Source: a virus. Taken from it: 21,355 bases of DNA. Position 1 is the stretch's first letter. The number at the start of each line of letters is the position of its first letter. This document shows positions 3,693-20,334 of this stretch, in pieces. Below the pieces are notes generated by a model. It worked only from the letters and a program-made list of their open reading frames with translations. It was not told the DNA's origin and searched no databases. The translations under genes and the position numbers were made by a program. The stretch is taken from positions 1 through 21,355 of IMG/VR virus record IMGVR_UViG_3300005096_000099. One strand, 5' to 3'.

Positions 3693-3701
3693 TGCTATAA
3701 T
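3693..3701 (+). promoter_or_regulatory. Extended -10 promoter element TGCTATAAT
   Basis: A perfect sigma70-type extended -10 (TGnTATAAT) at 3693-3701. Transcription would begin near 3707-3708, leaving about five bases before ATG 3713 and excluding the GGAGG at 3703-3707 from the message. Either the true start codon is ATG 3728 (with AAAGG upstream, 3717-3720) or the mRNA is nearly leaderless. No good -35 is visible, which extended -10 promoters do not need. Confidence 0.5.
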
Positions 3702-3712
3702 TGGAGGTAGAG

Positions 3713-3886
3713 ATGAAAGGTATTATCATGGCAGCAATAGATTACGAATTATCAGAAAACGCAACTGATTTACTTCTTGACGACTATATTGATTATGAGA
3801 TAGTCGATTGCAAACCGCCGATAGACGATGGTGAAGATAGACCAAGACGCGGCAAGAAAGGAAAGTATATAAAGGACTGGCAATAG
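3713..3886 (+). CDS. Small protein with RRGKKGKY tail, paralogue A
   Basis: A 57-residue protein from ATG 3713 (SD GGAGG 5 nt upstream); ATG 3728, with AAAGG before it, would give 52 residues and fits the putative promoter better. The N-terminal two-thirds is strongly acidic (LLLDDYIDYEIVD). The C-terminus CKPPIDDGEDRPRRGKKGKY followed by IKDWQ is basic and matches the end of the gene at 4202-4387 almost position by position. The acidic body with a short basic tail suggests a nucleic-acid- or protein-binding adaptor, but no function is known to me. The pair probably arose by duplication. Confidence 0.6.
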   Translation: MKGIIMAAIDYELSENATDLLLDDYIDYEIVDCKPPIDDGEDRPRRGKKGKYIKDWQ

Positions 3887-3999: not shown

Positions 4000-4182
4000 A
4001 TGTTTTCAGTTATTTTATTACTAATTTCTTTATTATTTTTTAAGATTGGTTGGGATATATTCTGTTGTAGTCGCGGTTATCATAAATTAAATCGTGAGCA
4101 GCAGAAGCTAAATTACCCATTAGAAGAATTGCATGATATTGGGAATCCTTTTTGCAGGTATAAGGGTAGGTGTAATTTTTAG
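4000..4182 (+). CDS. Small single-span membrane protein
   Basis: A 60-residue protein whose first 20 residues, MFSVILLLISLLFFKIGWDI, form one transmembrane segment or uncleaved signal anchor. The remainder is polar and cytoplasmic or periplasmic (FCCSRGYHKLNREQQKLN...) with four cysteines, two adjacent (FCC) and two near the end (FCRYKGRC). The AGAGG in the leader repeat is about 14 nt from ATG 4000, longer than ideal, so expression may be low. No family recognised. Lies between the two RRGKKGKY paralogues. Confidence 0.5.
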   Translation: MFSVILLLISLLFFKIGWDIFCCSRGYHKLNREQQKLNYPLEELHDIGNPFCRYKGRCNF

Positions 4183-4193
4183 GCGCAGAGAGG
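4183..4193 (+). repeat. Direct repeat GCGCAGAGAGG, copy 2 (gene leader)
   Basis: Second copy of the 11-mer at 3975-3985, immediately after the stop codon of the membrane protein and 8 bases before ATG 4202, where its AGAGG is a well-placed SD. Confidence 0.5.
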
Positions 4194-4201
4194 CGTATAG
4201 A

Positions 4202-4387
4202 ATGAAACGTATAAATGAGCTAACAGAAGAGCAAGTTAAGCCACATGGTACAGAAAGCGATACCTACATCCTCTATATGGAGGAGAGGGAGGCTGATGAA
4301 TATGAATCATGTCAGCCATCAGTAAACGATGGTGACGACAGGGGTAGGCGCGGAAAGAAAGGTAAATACCTGAAGGATTGGGAATAA
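4202..4387 (+). CDS. Small protein with RRGKKGKY tail, paralogue B
   Basis: A 61-residue protein beginning MKRINELTEEQVK; AGAGG at 4189-4193 is 8 nt from ATG 4202, so the longer upstream extension of this frame, which overlaps the membrane gene, was rejected. It has an acidic middle (YMEEREADEYE) and the C-terminus CQPSVNDGDDRGRRGKKGKY then LKDWE. This matches paralogue A at the Cys, Pro, DG, DR, RRGKKGKY, K, D and W positions, while the N-terminal halves differ. This suggests the tail is the functional, conserved part. It is the last plus-strand gene before the convergent minus-strand operon; no clear terminator separates them. Confidence 0.6.
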   Translation: MKRINELTEEQVKPHGTESDTYILYMEEREADEYESCQPSVNDGDDRGRRGKKGKYLKDWE

Positions 4388-4427: not shown

Positions 4428-4625
4428 CTACTTCTTCTTTCTACCACGCAAAGCCAGCTTAAGATGCCTAAGTCTCCCATCATTCATGTTTCGATGTGAT
4501 TCTGATTCAGGATTGCGTAGCCAGGATATAACCGTGAACTCCTCACAGCAAAGAATATCCGCAACATCTTTCGAGGTTAGCTTGTAATCACGCTTGATCT
4601 GGCGTAATTTGTCGGCGTTGTTCAT
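4428..4625 (-). CDS. Small HTH transcriptional regulator
   Basis: A 65-residue protein beginning MNNADKLRQIKRDYKLTSKD. The start at 4625 is chosen because it forms an ATGA overlap with the upstream gene (4622-4625); a 16-codon N-terminal extension would overlap that gene further. KLTSKDVADILCCEEFTVISWL reads as a Cro/CI-type helix-turn-helix (helix, VADIL turn, recognition helix TVISWL). It continues with RNPES.SHR.M.D.RL..LK, a pattern typical of small phage HTH proteins of this class, and ends in a basic RGRKKK tail. It is the last gene of the minus operon and may regulate the divergent promoters near 6400-6500. Confidence 0.6.
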   Translation of the reverse strand: MNNADKLRQIKRDYKLTSKDVADILCCEEFTVISWLRNPESESHRNMNDGRLRHLKLALRGRKKK

Positions 4626-4843
4626 TTCTTGGCCTGCTTGACGTAGTCGAAACAGTTTAGATTGCTGCTCCATACGAAATTGTGTAAATTCCGAGGATGA
4701 TTATTTGGCAGAATGTACTTAATCGTATCAACAAGGGTTTTATATTTATCAATAGACTTAACTGCTATAATGGTTCCCTCTGATAAGTGTTGAGTAATAT
4801 CATAATCTTCATCAACCTGATTATTCCGTCTAAGTAATATCAT
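4622..4843 (-). CDS. Small phage protein of 73 aa, unknown function
   Basis: A 73-residue protein beginning MILLRRNNQVDEDYDI. Its ATG (4843) is one base from the upstream stop at 4845 and no strong SD is present, so it is probably translated by coupling. It ends in an ATGA overlap with the HTH gene. Mixed composition, with TIIAVKSIDKYKTLVDTIKY in the middle suggesting beta-alpha structure and a C-terminal ProAsnHis-rich segment. No family recognised. Position next to the HTH suggests a partner or cargo of the same operon. Confidence 0.55.
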   Translation of the reverse strand: MILLRRNNQVDEDYDITQHLSEGTIIAVKSIDKYKTLVDTIKYILPNNHPRNLHNFVWSSNLNCFDYVKQAKK

Positions 4844-6542: not shown

Positions 6543-6692
6543 ATGACTGAAGAAAGAGAGCGAATGTACACGGTTGAAGAGGCCATTGAATTTGCCGAAC
6601 TACGCGAAGCTGGCAAAATGATTCCTTTTGAAGAAGAAGAAGTTATATTCTCACTGCTTGATGAAATAAACAGATTGGTAAAGGAAAAATGA
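6543..6692 (+). CDS. 49-aa acidic protein, unknown function
   Basis: A 49-residue acidic protein, beginning MTEERERMYTVEEAIEFAEL and ending INRLVKEK. It contains a run of four Glu (FEEEE). The start has AAAGG at 6530-6534 about 8 nt upstream, and the stop overlaps the next ATG (ATGA 6689-6692). An internal ATG (6564) would give a shorter form. It is the first plus-strand gene after the divergent promoter region. No known family. Confidence 0.6.
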   Translation: MTEERERMYTVEEAIEFAELREAGKMIPFEEEEVIFSLLDEINRLVKEK

Positions 6693-7033
6693 AGAAATAT
6701 GTGATTCCCCAGAATAGAAAGATACAGCGCCGCAACCTGTTAGCGTTCAAAGGTGAAGGACAGAAGATACAGTATGACTTCGCCCCGTGGGAAGCAGAAA
6801 ACGGAACGGTGACAACGGTTACATGGTCAATAATCTCAGGACAAGCTAGCATATCAAGTGAAACACTGGCATCCAGCAAGGCAAGTGCAATAGTCACAAC
6901 CACAGAGCCAGGAAGATCAATCATTGAAATTAAAGCCCTAACAGACGAAGGACTTACTATGGTAACCAACCTCAGAGTAACATCACTTGATAACCATGAA
7001 TGCGAAACACCGCTGGATTATCGTTATCACTAA
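6689..7033 (+). CDS. Putative Ig-like-fold phage structural protein
   Basis: A 114-residue protein beginning MKKYVIPQNRKIQRRNLLAF. The segment from about residue 33 to 102 alternates strands and turns (TVTTVTWSIISGQASI, SASIVTTTEPGRSIIEI-like, LRVTSLD), typical of an immunoglobulin-like (Big/cadherin-type) sandwich; a conserved Trp at 'VTWSI' is the usual core residue. Similar small proteins lie near packaging or head genes in many phages and some decorate virions. It starts in an ATGA overlap. Virion decoration is inferred from fold and location, not shown. Confidence 0.5.
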   Translation: MKKYVIPQNRKIQRRNLLAFKGEGQKIQYDFAPWEAENGTVTTVTWSIISGQASISSETLASSKASAIVTTTEPGRSIIEIKALTDEGLTMVTNLRVTSLDNHECETPLDYRYH

Positions 7034-8507: not shown

Positions 8508-9779
8508 ATGTCATTAATTAACTACGATACCGAGAAGCGCAGGGCTACGCAGGCGAGGAAGCAGGCTGAGGCTGAGTTGCAAGCTGCTGAGATTCTGTTG
8601 TCGAGGAGTAAGGCTAGAAAAAATTTCGTAAAATTCTGTGAGTATTTGAATCCTGACGAGCCTCCTGCGTTTCATCATAAGGTTATTTGTGATGCTTTGG
8701 AGGATGTAATTGATGGTAGGTTGAGGCGACTGATGATTTTCTGTCCACCTGGCTCTGCTAAATCGACCTATGGTTCTGTAAATTGTCCTGCATATTTTTT
8801 AGGTAAATATCCTGAAAAGTCGATTATTTGTGCTTCGTATGGTGAGGGGCTGGCTGCTGGGTTTGGTCGTAAGGTGCGGAATATTGTTAAGGGTGGCGAA
8901 TATGGACATTTATTTGAAACACGGCTGAGTGAGGATTCTCAGGCGAAGGGTGAGTGGGAGACTGACAGGGGCGGTTCATATTTTGCTGCTGGTGTTGGCT
9001 CTGGTATTACGGGTCGTCGTGCTGATTTAGGATTGATAGATGATCCGGTTAAGGGTCAGAAGGATGCTGATTCGCCGACTGTTCGCGAGGACACATGGAA
9101 TTGGTACAAGAGTGATTTCTTTTCCCGTTTAAAGCCGAATGCTGCTCAGATTATAATACAGACACGATGGCACATGGATGACCTTTCTGGGCGGATATTG
9201 CCTGAAGGCTGGAATGGCGAGAGTGGTGATTTTGAGGGATTTGATGGTCAGATATGGAAGGTAATCTGTATGCCTGCTCAAGCACGTGAGCACGATATTT
9301 TAGGAAGGAAAGAAGGGGAGTGGCTATGGACTGATTTTTTCACGCCAAAGGTCTGGGAAGAAATCAAGTATGTACAGACAAACAAGGGGCGAGATTTTCG
9401 TGTTTGGGGTTCTTTGTACCAGCAGACGCCGCAACCAGATGGCGGCGTATTTTTCAAGCGTGAGTGGTTTGATCGGTATGAGATTGATGATGAGCCTGAA
9501 TTAAGTATGTATGCGGCATCTGATTATGCGGTTTCTGATGGCAAGGGAGATCATACTGAGCATGGTGTTGGTGGCTTTGATGCAGATGATGAGTTGTGGT
9601 TTACAGATTGGTGGTCTGGGCGTGAGACGGCAGATGTGTGGATTGATGAGCAGTTAAGATTGGCGAAGATGTGGAAACCGTATGTTTGGTTGGCAGAGGT
9701 TGGCATTATACGTCGAAGTGTCGAGCCATTTTTGAAGAAAGCGAAGAAGTCGAAAGGCGTTTATTTCAGGAATGAGTGA
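8508..9779 (+). CDS. Large terminase subunit, N-terminal part (frame broken)
   Basis: The packaging motor: an ATPase that translocates DNA and a nuclease that cuts it. Visible motifs in this 423-residue part are Walker A CPPGSAKST (79-87), Walker B DLGLIDD (173-179), QTRWHMDDLSGRI (218-230), and the nuclease aspartate D339 (AASDYAVS) with the second acidic residue E397 (WLAEVG). The chain stops after FRNE at TGA 9777-9779, whereas family members continue R-E-W-x-P...GDK. Adding one base (TG to TGG) gives RNEWMPHIGDK and an intact protein of about 519 residues. No SD precedes ATG 8508. Its N-terminus is highly charged and helical. Confidence 0.9.
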   Translation: MSLINYDTEKRRATQARKQAEAELQAAEILLSRSKARKNFVKFCEYLNPDEPPAFHHKVICDALEDVIDGRLRRLMIFCPPGSAKSTYGSVNCPAYFLGKYPEKSIICASYGEGLAAGFGRKVRNIVKGGEYGHLFETRLSEDSQAKGEWETDRGGSYFAAGVGSGITGRRADLGLIDDPVKGQKDADSPTVREDTWNWYKSDFFSRLKPNAAQIIIQTRWHMDDLSGRILPEGWNGESGDFEGFDGQIWKVICMPAQAREHDILGRKEGEWLWTDFFTPKVWEEIKYVQTNKGRDFRVWGSLYQQTPQPDGGVFFKREWFDRYEIDDEPELSMYAASDYAVSDGKGDHTEHGVGGFDADDELWFTDWWSGRETADVWIDEQLRLAKMWKPYVWLAEVGIIRRSVEPFLKKAKKSKGVYFRNE

Positions 9780-10066
9780 TGCCGCATATAGGAGATAAGG
9801 GCGCGAATGCAAAAGGATTTCAGGCATTAGCTGCGAGTGGCATGGTGCATATCCCGAAATGTGAATGGGGCGATGAACTTGTTGACCAACTTGTTAAATT
9901 TGTGCCTAATACAAATTATCGGGATGATAAAGTTGATGTTTGCGGATTATTTGGTCGGATACTTGATAAAGCATTTTCCCCAACGAGTATACAAGTTGTT
10001 GAAAAAGTGGTAAAAGACTCTTATGGTTTGGATGATGAACAGGAATCTAACTGGAAAACAATGTGA
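9779..10066 (+). CDS. Large terminase subunit, C-terminal part (separate frame)
   Basis: A 95-residue continuation of the nuclease domain: MPHIGDKGANAKGFQALAAS, GMVHIPKCEWGDELVDQL, and DDKVDVCGLFGR, whose D53 is the last catalytic aspartate. It matches the segment of large terminases that directly follows the break in the upstream part. The ATG overlaps the upstream stop as TGATG (9777-9781), so it could be made as a separate polypeptide by reinitiation; an upstream GTG (9776) is an alternative start. Frame analysis confines the shift to about 9776-9779, because a stop in this frame lies at 9773-9775. Either a missing base or a genuine two-part terminase explains it. Confidence 0.8.
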   Translation: MPHIGDKGANAKGFQALAASGMVHIPKCEWGDELVDQLVKFVPNTNYRDDKVDVCGLFGRILDKAFSPTSIQVVEKVVKDSYGLDDEQESNWKTM

Positions 10067-10572
10067 TAGTTAAAAATTTAACGCAGGATAGACTAAAAGA
10101 GATGCTTTGTTACAACGATGTAACTGGTGTGTTTACATGGAGAATATCAATCGGAAGGGTAAGCGCTGGAAGTGTAGCTGGAAGAATTGTTGCAAACAGA
10201 TACAGAATTATAAAGATAGACAAGAATAATTATTTAGCGCATAGACTGGCGTTTTTATATATAACGGGAAGCATGCCTAAAAATGAGGTTGATCACATTG
10301 ATCACATTGATCATGATAGAGATAATAATTGTTTCAAAAACCTTCGAGATGTAACTAGGTCAGAGAATGCAAAAAATATGTCAATTCCATCAAATAATGT
10401 CTCTGGAATTACTGGCGTTTCATGGCACAGGTTAAAGGAAATGTGGCGCTCACAAATAACAAGCGATAGAAAGATTATCCATTTGGGTTTATTTTTAGAT
10501 AAGTGGGATGTAATTTGTTCAAGAAAGTCAGCCGAATATAGGTACTGCTTCCATGAAAATCACGGCTCATAA
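10063..10572 (+). CDS. HNH homing endonuclease with AP2-like domain (HNH-1)
   Basis: A 169-residue free-standing endonuclease between terminase and portal. The GTG start (10063) overlaps the terminase stop. Residues 76-105 contain the HNH core, EVDHIDHIDHDRDNNC then FKNLRDVT...N, and residues about 116-150 (TGVSWHRLKEMWRSQI) form an AP2-like DNA-binding module; the end is YCFHENHGS. HNH proteins of this type nick or cut DNA lacking their own gene and so spread. The core carries an extra DHI triplet from a 9-bp tandem duplication (10291-10308), which may affect activity. It is the same family as HNH-2 at 19810-20334. Confidence 0.85.
   Translation: MIVKNLTQDRLKEMLCYNDVTGVFTWRISIGRVSAGSVAGRIVANRYRIIKIDKNNYLAHRLAFLYITGSMPKNEVDHIDHIDHDRDNNCFKNLRDVTRSENAKNMSIPSNNVSGITGVSWHRLKEMWRSQITSDRKIIHLGLFLDKWDVICSRKSAEYRYCFHENHGS
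10291..10308 (+). repeat. 9-bp tandem duplication in the HNH motif
   Basis: GATCACATT occurs twice in a row (10291-10299, 10300-10308) and is followed by GATCATGAT. It adds three residues, DHI, to the metal-binding part of HNH-1. Removing one copy makes HNH-1 align with HNH-2 over this region without a gap. Confidence 0.75.
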
Positions 10573-10575
10573 AAA

Positions 10576-12426
10576 ATGATTGAATTAGAAGATGTTGTTA
10601 GTGATGTAGAGGACTTTCTGGTAAACACAGAAGACCCAAGATTTTTATCTGAAAGAGATAGAGATTATGTTAATAACAACCAGTGGAGTGAAGAAGAGCG
10701 TTGTGAGATTGAATCACGCGGTCAGGCAGCTATCACGGTTAATCGCATTAAGCCAAAGGTTGAAGGACTTAAAGGGCTTTTAAACCAGAGAAAGACAGAC
10801 CCGAAAGCTTGGGCGCGTACTCAGAAGCACGAAAAAGCGGCAGAGGCGGTAACAGATGCGCTGCGTTTTGTCTCAGACAATAATGACCTTGACCAGATTA
10901 AGCTTGATGTTGCTGATAACGTGTTTGTTGAAGGTTATGGTGCTGCAATTACCCAGGTTGTTGAAAAAGGCAACGATGTTGAGATAGAAGTTACTTCGAT
11001 TCCGTGGGATAGATATTATTTTGATAATATACATTCTCGCCGGTTAGATTTCACTGATAAACGGTGGGATGGCATTATTATATGGATGGGCGAAGATCAG
11101 GTTGAAGACACTTTTGGCCTTTCTGATGATGAAATAGCTGAATTGTATATTGATAATTCTGGAAACGGGTTTGAGACGTTTGACGACAGGCCACAGTGGA
11201 TTGATAGAAAAGAAAAAAGAATTCGTATTTGCCAGCACTTCAAAATATACGATGGCAAGTGGCACATGATGTACTTCACATCATCAAGGTTCCTTATTGA
11301 ACCAATGATAAGCCCTTATGTTGATGAATATGGCGAACCTGTAAATCCAATTGAGGCGATTTCAGCAAATATCGACCGTGATAATAACCGTTTTGGTGAG
11401 GTTCGTTACTGGATTGATCTTCAGGACGAAATAAACCACCGTCGTTCTAAATACCTATACTTACTTTCTTCACGTCAGACATCTGGGCGTAAAGGTTCAA
11501 TCCCAGACATTCCTGCGATGAAGCGAGAGCTTTCAAAGCCTGATGGTCATGTTGAATATGAAGGAGAAAAGGGTGATTTTGATATTCTTCGTACAAATGA
11601 TATGGCGCAAGCCCAATTTACCCTATTGCAAGACTCAAAAGCTGAATTAGATGGTGTTGGCTTCAGCCCTGATGTGAATGGTCGGTCTTTATCAGGTACG
11701 GCGGTGAATAGTTTGGAGCAGGCCGCAACCAATGAGCTATCTTCACTATATGCTGGGCTTACAGGGTTCGAGAAACGATTATATCGACAATTCTGGATGC
11801 GTATTAAACAGTTCTGGAAGGAAGAGAAGTGGCTTCGCGTTCTTGATGATAAAACAAAACTACGATGGGTCGGCCTGAACCAGAAAATCACCTTAAAGAT
11901 GATGCTCGAGGAGTCTGCAAACGATGAATCTCTTGACATAGATCAAAGACAGCAGGTTGGACAGCAATTGCAGCAGATGGTGCAGGCACAAGACCCGCGA
12001 TTGAATCAGGTAATTGAGTCAAGAAATGATGTATCTGAATTAGATGTAGATATTATTCTTGAAACATCCTTCGATACCGTTAATGTTCAGCGTGAGCAGT
12101 TTGATTTATTGGCTAAAATCGCACAGACAAATACCAACGTACCATTCACCGAAGTATTGAAATTATCTGAATTACGTGGTAAAGATAAGATTATTAAGTC
12201 GATTGAGTCAACTGCTCAGGCAAATTCACAACAGCAACAACAGATTCAGCAGATGCAAGAACAGTTAGCGCAATTAAAAGCACAGTCTGATGCACAGTTA
12301 AATCAGGCCAAAACAGCGAAAGAGCAGATGAACGCGAAGAAAGCAAAAGCCGATGCAGAGCTAACTGAATTGCAAACTGAAATTTTGATAGACAGCCCGC
12401 CTGCTGATGCGAGCGTGGTATTATAG
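10576..12426 (+). CDS. P22-type portal protein
   Basis: A 616-residue protein forming the dodecameric vertex through which DNA is packaged and ejected. Features: N-terminal SERDRDYVNNNQWSEEER, then GQAAITVNRIKPKVEGLKGL, VFVEGYGAAIT, IPWDRYYFDNIHSRRLDFTD, and GVGFSPDVNGRSLSGTAVNS, all typical of the P22 gp1/Phage_P22_portal family; the last is the region before the long stem helix. The C-terminus (about 540-600) is a Gln/Lys-rich coiled coil resembling a shortened P22 barrel. It begins 3 bases after the HNH-1 stop with no SD (CGGCTCATAAAAA), so portal translation may depend on coupling. Length (family about 600-725) is normal. Confidence 0.9.
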   Translation: MIELEDVVSDVEDFLVNTEDPRFLSERDRDYVNNNQWSEEERCEIESRGQAAITVNRIKPKVEGLKGLLNQRKTDPKAWARTQKHEKAAEAVTDALRFVSDNNDLDQIKLDVADNVFVEGYGAAITQVVEKGNDVEIEVTSIPWDRYYFDNIHSRRLDFTDKRWDGIIIWMGEDQVEDTFGLSDDEIAELYIDNSGNGFETFDDRPQWIDRKEKRIRICQHFKIYDGKWHMMYFTSSRFLIEPMISPYVDEYGEPVNPIEAISANIDRDNNRFGEVRYWIDLQDEINHRRSKYLYLLSSRQTSGRKGSIPDIPAMKRELSKPDGHVEYEGEKGDFDILRTNDMAQAQFTLLQDSKAELDGVGFSPDVNGRSLSGTAVNSLEQAATNELSSLYAGLTGFEKRLYRQFWMRIKQFWKEEKWLRVLDDKTKLRWVGLNQKITLKMMLEESANDESLDIDQRQQVGQQLQQMVQAQDPRLNQVIESRNDVSELDVDIILETSFDTVNVQREQFDLLAKIAQTNTNVPFTEVLKLSELRGKDKIIKSIESTAQANSQQQQQIQQMQEQLAQLKAQSDAQLNQAKTAKEQMNAKKAKADAELTELQTEILIDSPPADASVVL

Positions 12427-12927: not shown

Positions 12928-13012
12928 ATTTACACAAGTAAAGCCTGCCGCCGGGGTTCGGGCGATTATGCAAGCCGCCATTGCTAAAAGGGCGAGGAAG
13001 AGAAGAAGATGA
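12914..13012 (+). pseudogene. 3' remnant of a small basic protein gene
   Basis: An open frame with no start codon of its own, reading TQVKPAAGVRAIMQAAIAKR then ARKRRR and stopping at TGA 13010-13012, which overlaps the scaffold ATG at 13009 (ATGA). The coupling overlap, the distinctly higher G+C than the cassette just upstream, and the protein-like composition argue that this is the surviving end of a real gene. An internal ATG (12968) would give 14 residues. See the matching 5' fragment at 12430-12445. Confidence 0.45.
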
Positions 13013-13200
13013 CTGATGAAGCAGAAGTAACGCCTGAAGAGGCGTTGTTTGAAAACGAAGATCACGATGAAATTATTACTGAGGTAGTTGAAGAAACACC
13101 GAAGGAAGAAGTGGTTGAAACTGAGGTTGAATCTAGCGAACAGACGGAAAAAGAGCCGGAAACAGAACAGCAGATAAGCCTGAAAAAGAAGCGACATTAG
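13009..13200 (+). CDS. Scaffold protein, N-terminal part (frame broken)
   Basis: A 63-residue, extremely acidic segment starting MTDEAEVTPEEALFENEDHD, with GAGGAAGAGAAGAAG as SD. Such E-rich N-termini are typical of phage scaffolding proteins, which direct assembly of major capsid protein and then leave. The frame ends in LKKKRH*, but the overlapping frame from 13137 onward reads ADKPEKEATLVPMAALQDER, exactly the expected continuation. A single missing base between about 13137 and 13196, for example near 13170, would account for the break; corrected length would be about 239 residues. Confidence 0.8.
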   Translation: MTDEAEVTPEEALFENEDHDEIITEVVEETPKEEVVETEVESSEQTEKEPETEQQISLKKKRH

Positions 13201-13205
13201 TACCA

Positions 13206-13727
13206 ATGGCGGCATTGCAGGATGAAAGACATAAACGCCAGCAGTATGAGAAAGAAATTGAGCAGTTAAGGTCACAACTGCCGAAAAGTGATGAAGCGCC
13301 TGACCCGTATGAAGATATTGATGCCTACGATGCCTATAAACGGTCAAAATGGGAGCAAGAACAGAATACGAAGCAGGAGCAGCAACGGAATGCACGTATT
13401 AACGAATCTCGAAGTAAGATGCTTGAAACGCATGAAGATTACGATGAGATGGAGCAGATTTTCCAGTTAATGACTGTTAGCGATAAAACATTGGTTGAAA
13501 AGATGTTTGCTAGTGGGAATGAAGCTAAATTTGCTTATGATACAGCGAAAGAATATAAGGAATCACTGATTGGCGGAAAGCCTGAAATTGTTGAAGAAAC
13601 TCAAACTACTGACAAGTCTGCAATCGAAGTGCCAAATTTAGCAAAAGTAACTGCTCAGGCAAAGAATACCCAAGGTCTCGATAAAGAAGAAGATATTGAT
13701 GACGTATTTGCCGACATGCAGTATTAA
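13206..13727 (+). CDS. Scaffold protein, C-terminal part
   Basis: A 173-residue coiled-coil protein with MAALQDERHKRQQYEKEIEQ (residues 1-20), followed by LRSQLPKSDEAPDPYED and the acidic tail EEDIDDVFADMQY. 'PLAALQDERKKRQ...' plus 'PDP.ED..AYDAY' is the characteristic pattern of scaffolds upstream of N4-type major capsid genes. ATG 13206 has no SD, so on its own this part would be poorly translated; the coding frame is open from 13137. Interaction with capsid is expected through the C-terminal helix. The next gene is the major capsid protein. Confidence 0.8.
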   Translation: MAALQDERHKRQQYEKEIEQLRSQLPKSDEAPDPYEDIDAYDAYKRSKWEQEQNTKQEQQRNARINESRSKMLETHEDYDEMEQIFQLMTVSDKTLVEKMFASGNEAKFAYDTAKEYKESLIGGKPEIVEETQTTDKSAIEVPNLAKVTAQAKNTQGLDKEEDIDDVFADMQY

Positions 13728-18754: not shown

Positions 18755-19720
18755 ATGGGATTTCTTGATAAAGTTAAAAGCGCAGCCCCAATTATTGGTG
18801 CTGGAGCAGGATATGCTATTGGTGGCCCAATGGGAGGGTTGCTTGGTGCGAGTCTTGGTTCATCGTTTCTTGGCTCAGGAGCAGCAACTGACGCAGCCAA
18901 TATAAGCGCAGGCGCATCGCGCTACGATGCCAATTTAACAGACCAGCAATATCAGCAGAATCGTCAAGACTTATCACCTTATCGTGATGTTGCTACAGGT
19001 GAGCCGATATATGATACGCAAGGAAATATTACCGGATACACAGGCGGCGCATTAAATCAATTAGCTGATTATGGTCGTTCACAGGTTAATCAGGGAGATT
19101 ATATCCCTGCGTCGAATATCCCGAATTATGACCCTAATATCGACTTGTCAAAAGACCCTTCGTATCAATTCAGGCTGAATGAGCAGAACCGACAGATTAA
19201 TCGCAATATGGCTGGCATGGGTAAATTGACATCTGGAAACCGACTTGAGGAGATTATGGCTCGTAGTGGTCAGATGGCTTCTCAGGAATATGCCGCAGCA
19301 GATGCACGCAATGCTCGCGACTACGGAATTAACCGAGGTAATGAGACGACCATATATAACAGGGGCGTTGGTGATTATTCTAGGGCATACGGCGCTGAAG
19401 GTGATTATCTTAACAGGTTAGCATCTCTATCAAATATAGGGCAAACAGCTACTACAAATACTGGGAGATTTGGTGCTAATGCAGCGGCTTCTCAAGGTAA
19501 TTCGATTGTTGATGCAGCCAATGCTCAAGCAGCAGGAACTATAGGCGCAGCTAATGCGGTACAGAGCGGTATTGGAGATATAACGAGTTTAGCAACTCAA
19601 TACTATGGAAATCAATATAGCCCTTCATTTAATTTGAATGCCCCACAAGGAGGCTCGCTATCAACCACATCAGGTGGCTATGGCGGGACAGGAATGGGCG
19701 TTTGGGATGTTTACGGATGA
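18755..19720 (+). CDS. Glycine-rich DNA-ejection-type protein (DNA transfer)
   Basis: A 321-residue protein with AAAAAGG 6 nt before ATG 18755. The N-terminus MGFLDKVKSAAPIIGAGAGY followed by IGGPMGGLLGASLGSSFL is a glycine-zipper membrane-active segment, as in ejected pilot proteins (P22 gp7/gp20 group, 'DNA transfer protein'). After it come Gln/Asn-rich helices, YDANLTDQQYQQNRQDLSPY, then DPSYQFRLNEQNRQINRNMA and an Ala/Gln-rich C-terminal half ending in a GGYGG run. Such proteins leave the virion with DNA and build a conduit through the envelope. It precedes HNH-2. Confidence 0.65.
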   Translation: MGFLDKVKSAAPIIGAGAGYAIGGPMGGLLGASLGSSFLGSGAATDAANISAGASRYDANLTDQQYQQNRQDLSPYRDVATGEPIYDTQGNITGYTGGALNQLADYGRSQVNQGDYIPASNIPNYDPNIDLSKDPSYQFRLNEQNRQINRNMAGMGKLTSGNRLEEIMARSGQMASQEYAAADARNARDYGINRGNETTIYNRGVGDYSRAYGAEGDYLNRLASLSNIGQTATTNTGRFGANAAASQGNSIVDAANAQAAGTIGAANAVQSGIGDITSLATQYYGNQYSPSFNLNAPQGGSLSTTSGGYGGTGMGVWDVYG

Positions 19721-19740
19721 TAATTTTTTATGCAGTAAAA

Positions 19741-19749
19741 TGGTATAAT
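19741..19749 (+). promoter_or_regulatory. Extended -10 promoter TGGTATAAT for HNH-2
   Basis: A perfect TGnTATAAT 20 bases after the stop of the ejection protein gene. Transcription would begin near 19756. With SD AAGAGG at 19798-19803 this gives a leader of about 54 nt before ATG 19810. No matching -35 is evident. Confidence 0.5.
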
Positions 19750-19757
19750 TGGGTTCA

Positions 19758-19775
19758 AGGGTGCGTTAACACCCT
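19758..19775 (+). other. Hairpin at the 5' end of the HNH-2 leader
   Basis: AGGGTG (19758-19763) and CACCCT (19770-19775) form a perfect 6-bp stem with loop CGTTAA. It would begin about two bases after the predicted transcription start, so it may cap the leader against decay or weakly attenuate transcription. Confidence 0.4.
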
Positions 19776-19809
19776 ATTCCCCTATCACAACGATATAAGA
19801 GGTATCGCT

Positions 19810-20334
19810 ATGAACAAAGAAAGTTTAACACAATCACGCCTGAAAGAACTACTGCATTACAATCCAGATACTGGATACCTTACATGGTCATGTAAAATGT
19901 TTGGTATAAAAAAAGGAGATATTGCTGGATGTAAGAGTAAATACAGAACTGGAAAGCATTATGTCTCAGTGAGAATAGATGGAAAATTATACCTATCCCA
20001 TAGGATTATATGGCTATATATGACAGGGGCGTTTCCTGAAAATCACATAGACCATATAAATGGCAACGGGTGTGATAATAGATTCATAAATCTTAGAGAC
20101 GTGACTAAGATCGAGAATTGTAGAAACGTGAGAAAGTCTATATGTAACACAAGCGGAACAGTTGGCGTATTCTGGGAGGAAAATATTAGTAAGTGGAGAG
20201 CATGCATAGGGATTAAGAAGAAGAGTATACATATCGGTGTATTTAAAAATAAAGTTGATGCAATAATTGCTAGAAAGATGGCTGAGTATCAATATGGGTT
20301 CCATCAAAATCATGGCGCGGAGAGACCATTGTGA
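19810..20334 (+). CDS. HNH homing endonuclease with AP2-like domain (HNH-2)
   Basis: A 174-residue free-standing endonuclease. ATG 19810 is chosen because AAGAGG lies 6 nt upstream and the sequence then starts MNKESLTQSRLKELLHYNPD, as in relatives; a longer frame starts inside the previous gene. The HNH core is HIDHINGNGCDNRF then INLRDVT (residues about 79-99), the AP2-like part follows (about 115-150, VGVFWEENISKWRACIG), and the end is YGFHQNHGAERPL. It is close in sequence to HNH-1 over the whole length, but keeps the ordinary spacing in the core. It has its own promoter-like element and overlaps the next gene by 4 bases. Confidence 0.85.
   Translation: MNKESLTQSRLKELLHYNPDTGYLTWSCKMFGIKKGDIAGCKSKYRTGKHYVSVRIDGKLYLSHRIIWLYMTGAFPENHIDHINGNGCDNRFINLRDVTKIENCRNVRKSICNTSGTVGVFWEENISKWRACIGIKKKSIHIGVFKNKVDAIIARKMAEYQYGFHQNHGAERPL

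Follow-up and report, generated by a model that had tools for sequence, protein, structure and literature searches.

The gene for the large terminase subunit (TerL) in the window analysed here, a 21,355-base stretch of viral DNA that represents one IMG/VR virus record, is broken into two reading frames by a single base that is missing relative to its relatives, and we attribute this loss, with a probability of roughly 0.7, to an indel introduced during sequencing or assembly. The attribution draws on sequence comparison: a second gene of the same contig carries a frameshift of the same kind, and the coding sequence is conserved on both sides of the TerL break, from which we infer that the phage itself did not lose the base and that the loss arose as the sequence was determined or assembled. 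We suggest annotating the apparent split as a probable frame error of the contig, not as evidence of a two-piece terminase, with the warning that at least one further gene in the record, encoding a scaffold-like protein, is mis-framed. The features concerned are:

4428–4673, minus strand: CI/Cro-like repressor (PHROG 7950)
8508–9779, plus strand: N-terminal part of TerL, 423 aa, ending FRNE-TGA (Pfam Terminase_6N, PHROG 38)
9776–9779, plus strand: stretch open in two frames, with one base fewer than relatives, TG versus TGG (stops, DNA alignments)
9779–10066, plus strand: C-terminal part of TerL in the −1 frame, 95 aa from ATG 9779 (PHROG 12171, TerL of relatives)
10063–10572: HNH_3 endonuclease ORF between TerL and portal
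10576–12426, plus strand: P22-like portal protein, intact (Pfam P22_portal, E 3.6e-80)
13009–13200, plus strand: N-terminal part of the scaffold-like protein (weak match to residues 1–61 of L089, E 4e-5; codon usage)
13206–13727, plus strand: C-terminal part of the scaffold-like protein, in the −1 frame relative to the N-terminal part (L089, L268, L269, L088)
19702–20334: HNH_3 endonuclease ORF, the second in the window

Positions 9761–9800 of the window read TTATTTCAGGAATGAGTGATGCCGCATATAGGAGATAAGG. In the frame that begins at 8508, the junction is AAT GAG TGA, giving ...VYFRNE and a stop at 9777–9779; the −1 frame has a TGA at 9773–9775 and is then open from 9776 to its stop at 10064–10066. 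These two stops therefore confine any switch of frame to 9776–9779, and the second ORF could restart at GTG 9776 or at ATG 9779, within a TGATG overlap. An earlier note on this DNA, made from the letters alone, had described a first frame ending FRNE-stop, a second beginning at a TGATG overlap, a switch limited to about four bases and catalytic residues divided between two polypeptides, and all of this agrees with the sequence. D339 and E397 lie in the first ORF and the third catalytic residue, D53 (numbered from ATG 9779), in the second; the numbering was checked. The first ORF matches the PHROG 38 terminase large subunit profile at E 5.6e-88 and carries Walker-type ATPase motifs (CPPGSAKST at residue 79 and LIDDP at residue 176). 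The elements of an RNase H-like nuclease (D339, E397 and an RDDKVD motif) are all present, spread over the two ORFs, the second of which matches the PHROG 12171 terminase profile weakly (E 1.8e-5). What the window does not encode is a single uninterrupted polypeptide, its frame being broken at 9776–9779, and we take this to be a flaw in the contig or copy and no reason to drop the gene from the TerL family. When the ORFs of relatives were compared with the window by tblastn, unbroken proteins matched the first piece to its end and continued in the second; as both ORFs match the same unbroken relatives at adjoining residues, their pairing is more than chance.

Relatives were sought in IMG/VR using the TerL pieces, the portal and a TerL alignment as queries, and the closest of them (L268, L269, L270, L088, L090, L109 and L110) share 55–77% identity with the window. 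The first TerL piece is 77% identical to L268 and L269 (residues 12–412 of L269), 66% to L270 and ~62–63% to L088, L090, L109 and L110, and the second is 60–65% identical to the single TerL ORF of L268, L269 and L270 and 55–61% to the other four. TerL forms one ORF of 508 aa in both L088 and L269, 513 aa in L090 and 511 aa in L270, and the frame of L268 is open through the junction site. DNA alignments show the window with GAGT-GATGCC where L268, L269 and L090 have GA(A/G)TGGATGCC (GAGTGGATGCC in L268, GAATGGATGCC in L269 and L090), and TGG (Trp) occurs at the junction of L088, L109, L110 and L270 as well. The missing base is one G of a TGG Trp codon present in all of these relatives, as the earlier note had proposed, and with it restored the product is probably an ordinary one-piece enzyme comprising an ATPase and an RNase H-like nuclease, with its frame interrupted in this contig. 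The R-N-E-W sequence that the note expected of large terminases is less widespread than it assumed: the Trp characterizes this clade, where 20 of 30 aligned relatives have it, rather than large terminases as a group.

Among the 254 loci that tblastn matched to the L088 TerL, 212 cross the junction site in one frame (138 viral contigs, 68 genome contigs and six phage records) and none is broken there. In a scan of 251 loci, likewise, no TerL had its matches divided between two frames, and the only short copies, in L238 and L266, are both broken away from the junction. When IMG/VR was searched for exact DNA matches to the junction carrying zero to two extra bases, there were none, and thus no near-identical independent copy came to light in a search that may withhold very close records. 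The one-base loss is, by these comparisons, private to the window contig among everything searched. Intact, overlap-free relatives support the single-base error or mutation that the earlier note had offered as one reading, and their recovery by tblastn is also the outcome by which, in its own terms, the split would lose its biological interest. Stops within single-frame matches were confined to L136 and L140, away from the junction. These two contigs, 89% identical, share the TerL position of an in-frame TAG (1224 in L136, 4298 in L140), adjoined by synonymous differences; read-through of TAG also lengthens the next ORF in both, which suggests TAG recoding in those phages.

The overlap itself invites a different explanation, namely a natural two-piece terminase in which translation ends at the TGA and resumes at the ATG that overlaps it, the two chains sharing the nuclease site. 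Such an enzyme would be in keeping with the TGATG, with conservation of both pieces and with an AGGA that precedes ATG 9779 by 7 bases, a type of core found before only 8 of the 216 out-of-frame internal ATGs in the window genes. However, the AGGA belongs to the coding sequence TTC AGG AAT (Phe-Arg-Asn), and the TGATG exists because one G was lost from TGG-ATG; as an automatic by-product of base loss, it adds no separate argument for coupled translation. In the TerL ORF, 145 of 1504 single-base deletions (about 10%) would yield an overlapping restart codon, making such a codon mildly suggestive at most. The split is also found in none of the 212 relatives that cover the site, the closest ones being intact, and the same kind of break occurs in a second, unrelated gene of the window.

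The position of the cut within the protein also argues against two chains. We modelled the L088 TerL with AlphaFold2 (mean pLDDT 86.8), from an alignment built of fetched loci only, with sequences from phage records left out. In the model an RNase H-like nuclease follows the ATPase, and a fold search with this model recovered the terminases of T4 (gp17), HK97, Sf6, D6E and P22; a sequence search of the PDB with the TerL profile gave no match. The junction residue, W413 of L088, falls inside a predicted beta strand (410–414) that connects a long helix to the helix after it, in a region of moderate local confidence (block mean pLDDT 68 for residues 401–410 and 86 for 411–420). A junction within a strand of the nuclease would be an unlikely site for a natural split. 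We therefore regard a natural two-piece terminase as very unlikely, reinitiation at the TGATG as unsupported, and a phage lineage with a two-chain packaging motor, made by TGATG-coupled reinitiation and sharing one nuclease site, as highly improbable. If true, the split would represent a rare natural two-chain TerL and would offer a test of how the TerL nuclease assembles, but nothing here supports it.

Programmed −1 frameshifting, the remaining route suggested by the earlier note, would fuse both ORFs into a full-length TerL. The offset between the two frames is indeed −1 and a fusion would have normal length, but there is no slippery heptamer (X-XXY-YYZ) at the overlap or elsewhere in 9740–9790, and a −1 slip of the Glu codon in the P site would place its tRNA on TGA. 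Nor is the overlap conserved as would be expected of a programmed event, all relatives being in frame and none using frameshifting. We consider this explanation exceedingly improbable.

A second gene of the window, between portal and capsid, shows a comparable break. Its product is termed scaffold-like for this position and its composition, a search against family models having given no match. It is encoded in two frames (13009–13200 and 13206–13727), whereas L088, L089, L268 and L269 have one ORF of 234–240 aa. The C-terminal part matches residues 59–234 of L089 at 60% identity; support for the N-terminal piece from L089 is modest because its acidic region is poorly conserved. The frame of 13206–13727 is open after 13134, and a scan of codon usage independently puts the shift somewhere from about 13141 to about 13186, with the N-terminal frame coding to about 13186. 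The overlap contains G AAA AAG, an imperfect slippery site, and the relatives are in frame. The TerL and scaffold-like breaks lie 3.4 kb apart and shift the frame in the same direction, as from one lost base, and the scaffold-like gene thus looks, like TerL, to be one base short. Frameshifted TerL is rare among comparable contigs, and two breaks in one contig therefore need a cause specific to it. The second break of the same kind favours an error of sequencing or assembly, with a damaged copy as the main rival, although that rarity, and the lack of a long homopolymer at either break, count against an error.

That rival holds that the deletion is genuine and the genome defective, such as a prophage in decay or a dead population variant, and we consider it unlikely, as we do its corollary that the TerL and scaffold-like genes are truly broken and no functional terminase is made. 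It would explain why two virion genes of a single contig are broken, neither of them at a long homopolymer, and the CI/Cro-like repressor implies that the phage, with its P22-type portal, is probably temperate. Against it, synonymous change greatly exceeds nonsynonymous change in each of the TerL pieces (pS about 0.74–0.85, pN 0.18–0.28), so that the loss, if real at all, must be very recent. The portal matches L268 and L269 in a single frame over its full length, and both portal and capsid genes are intact; with the conserved flanks of the break, this would require any damage to the genome to be very recent. No host flanks are visible within the window. An indel introduced by sequencing or assembly remains our preferred reading.

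The surroundings of TerL vary among these phages. No HNH ORF lies between TerL and portal in L088, L090, L268 or L269, and in L268 another gene occupies the interval where the window has its HNH_3 ORF. A small conserved gene of unknown function (6689–7033 in the window, 891–1238 in L268 and 2458–2796 in L269) is found well upstream of TerL, directly before it or directly after it in related phages. Elsewhere in the window, two small ORFs at 3701–3886 and 4133–4387 have a common C-terminal motif, GRRGKKGKY(I/L)KDW(Q/E), and resemble a tandem duplication.

The TerL proteins of phage CBW1004C-Prop1, Pseudanabaena phages Pan3 and Pam1 and Microcystis phage Mwe-JY13 belong to the same family, with ATPase and nuclease, and are 42–55% identical to the N-terminal part of the window TerL, and those of CBW1004C-Prop1 and Pan3 match its C-terminal part as well; all four are single ORFs, whereas the window copy is interrupted. 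Uncultivated phages L088, L268 and L269 have the order of portal, scaffold-like and capsid genes in common with the window, but encode the scaffold-like protein in one ORF where the window has two, and TerL in L268, L269, L270, L088 and L090 occupies one frame with TGG where the window has two frames. The structures of T4 gp17, HK97, Sf6 gp2, D6E and P22 match the fold of the L088 model in both ATPase and nuclease domains at only 10–14% sequence identity, and none is listed as a two-chain enzyme. Literature searches for a split or frameshifted TerL gave no evident precedent among the titles and abstracts they listed. Homing endonucleases do split some genes into working pieces, such as nrdA of phage Aeh1. 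The window resembles splits of this type in having one gene as two ORFs with an HNH ORF nearby (10063–10572), but differs from them in that the HNH ORF follows the end of TerL and the break is a missing base without an insertion.
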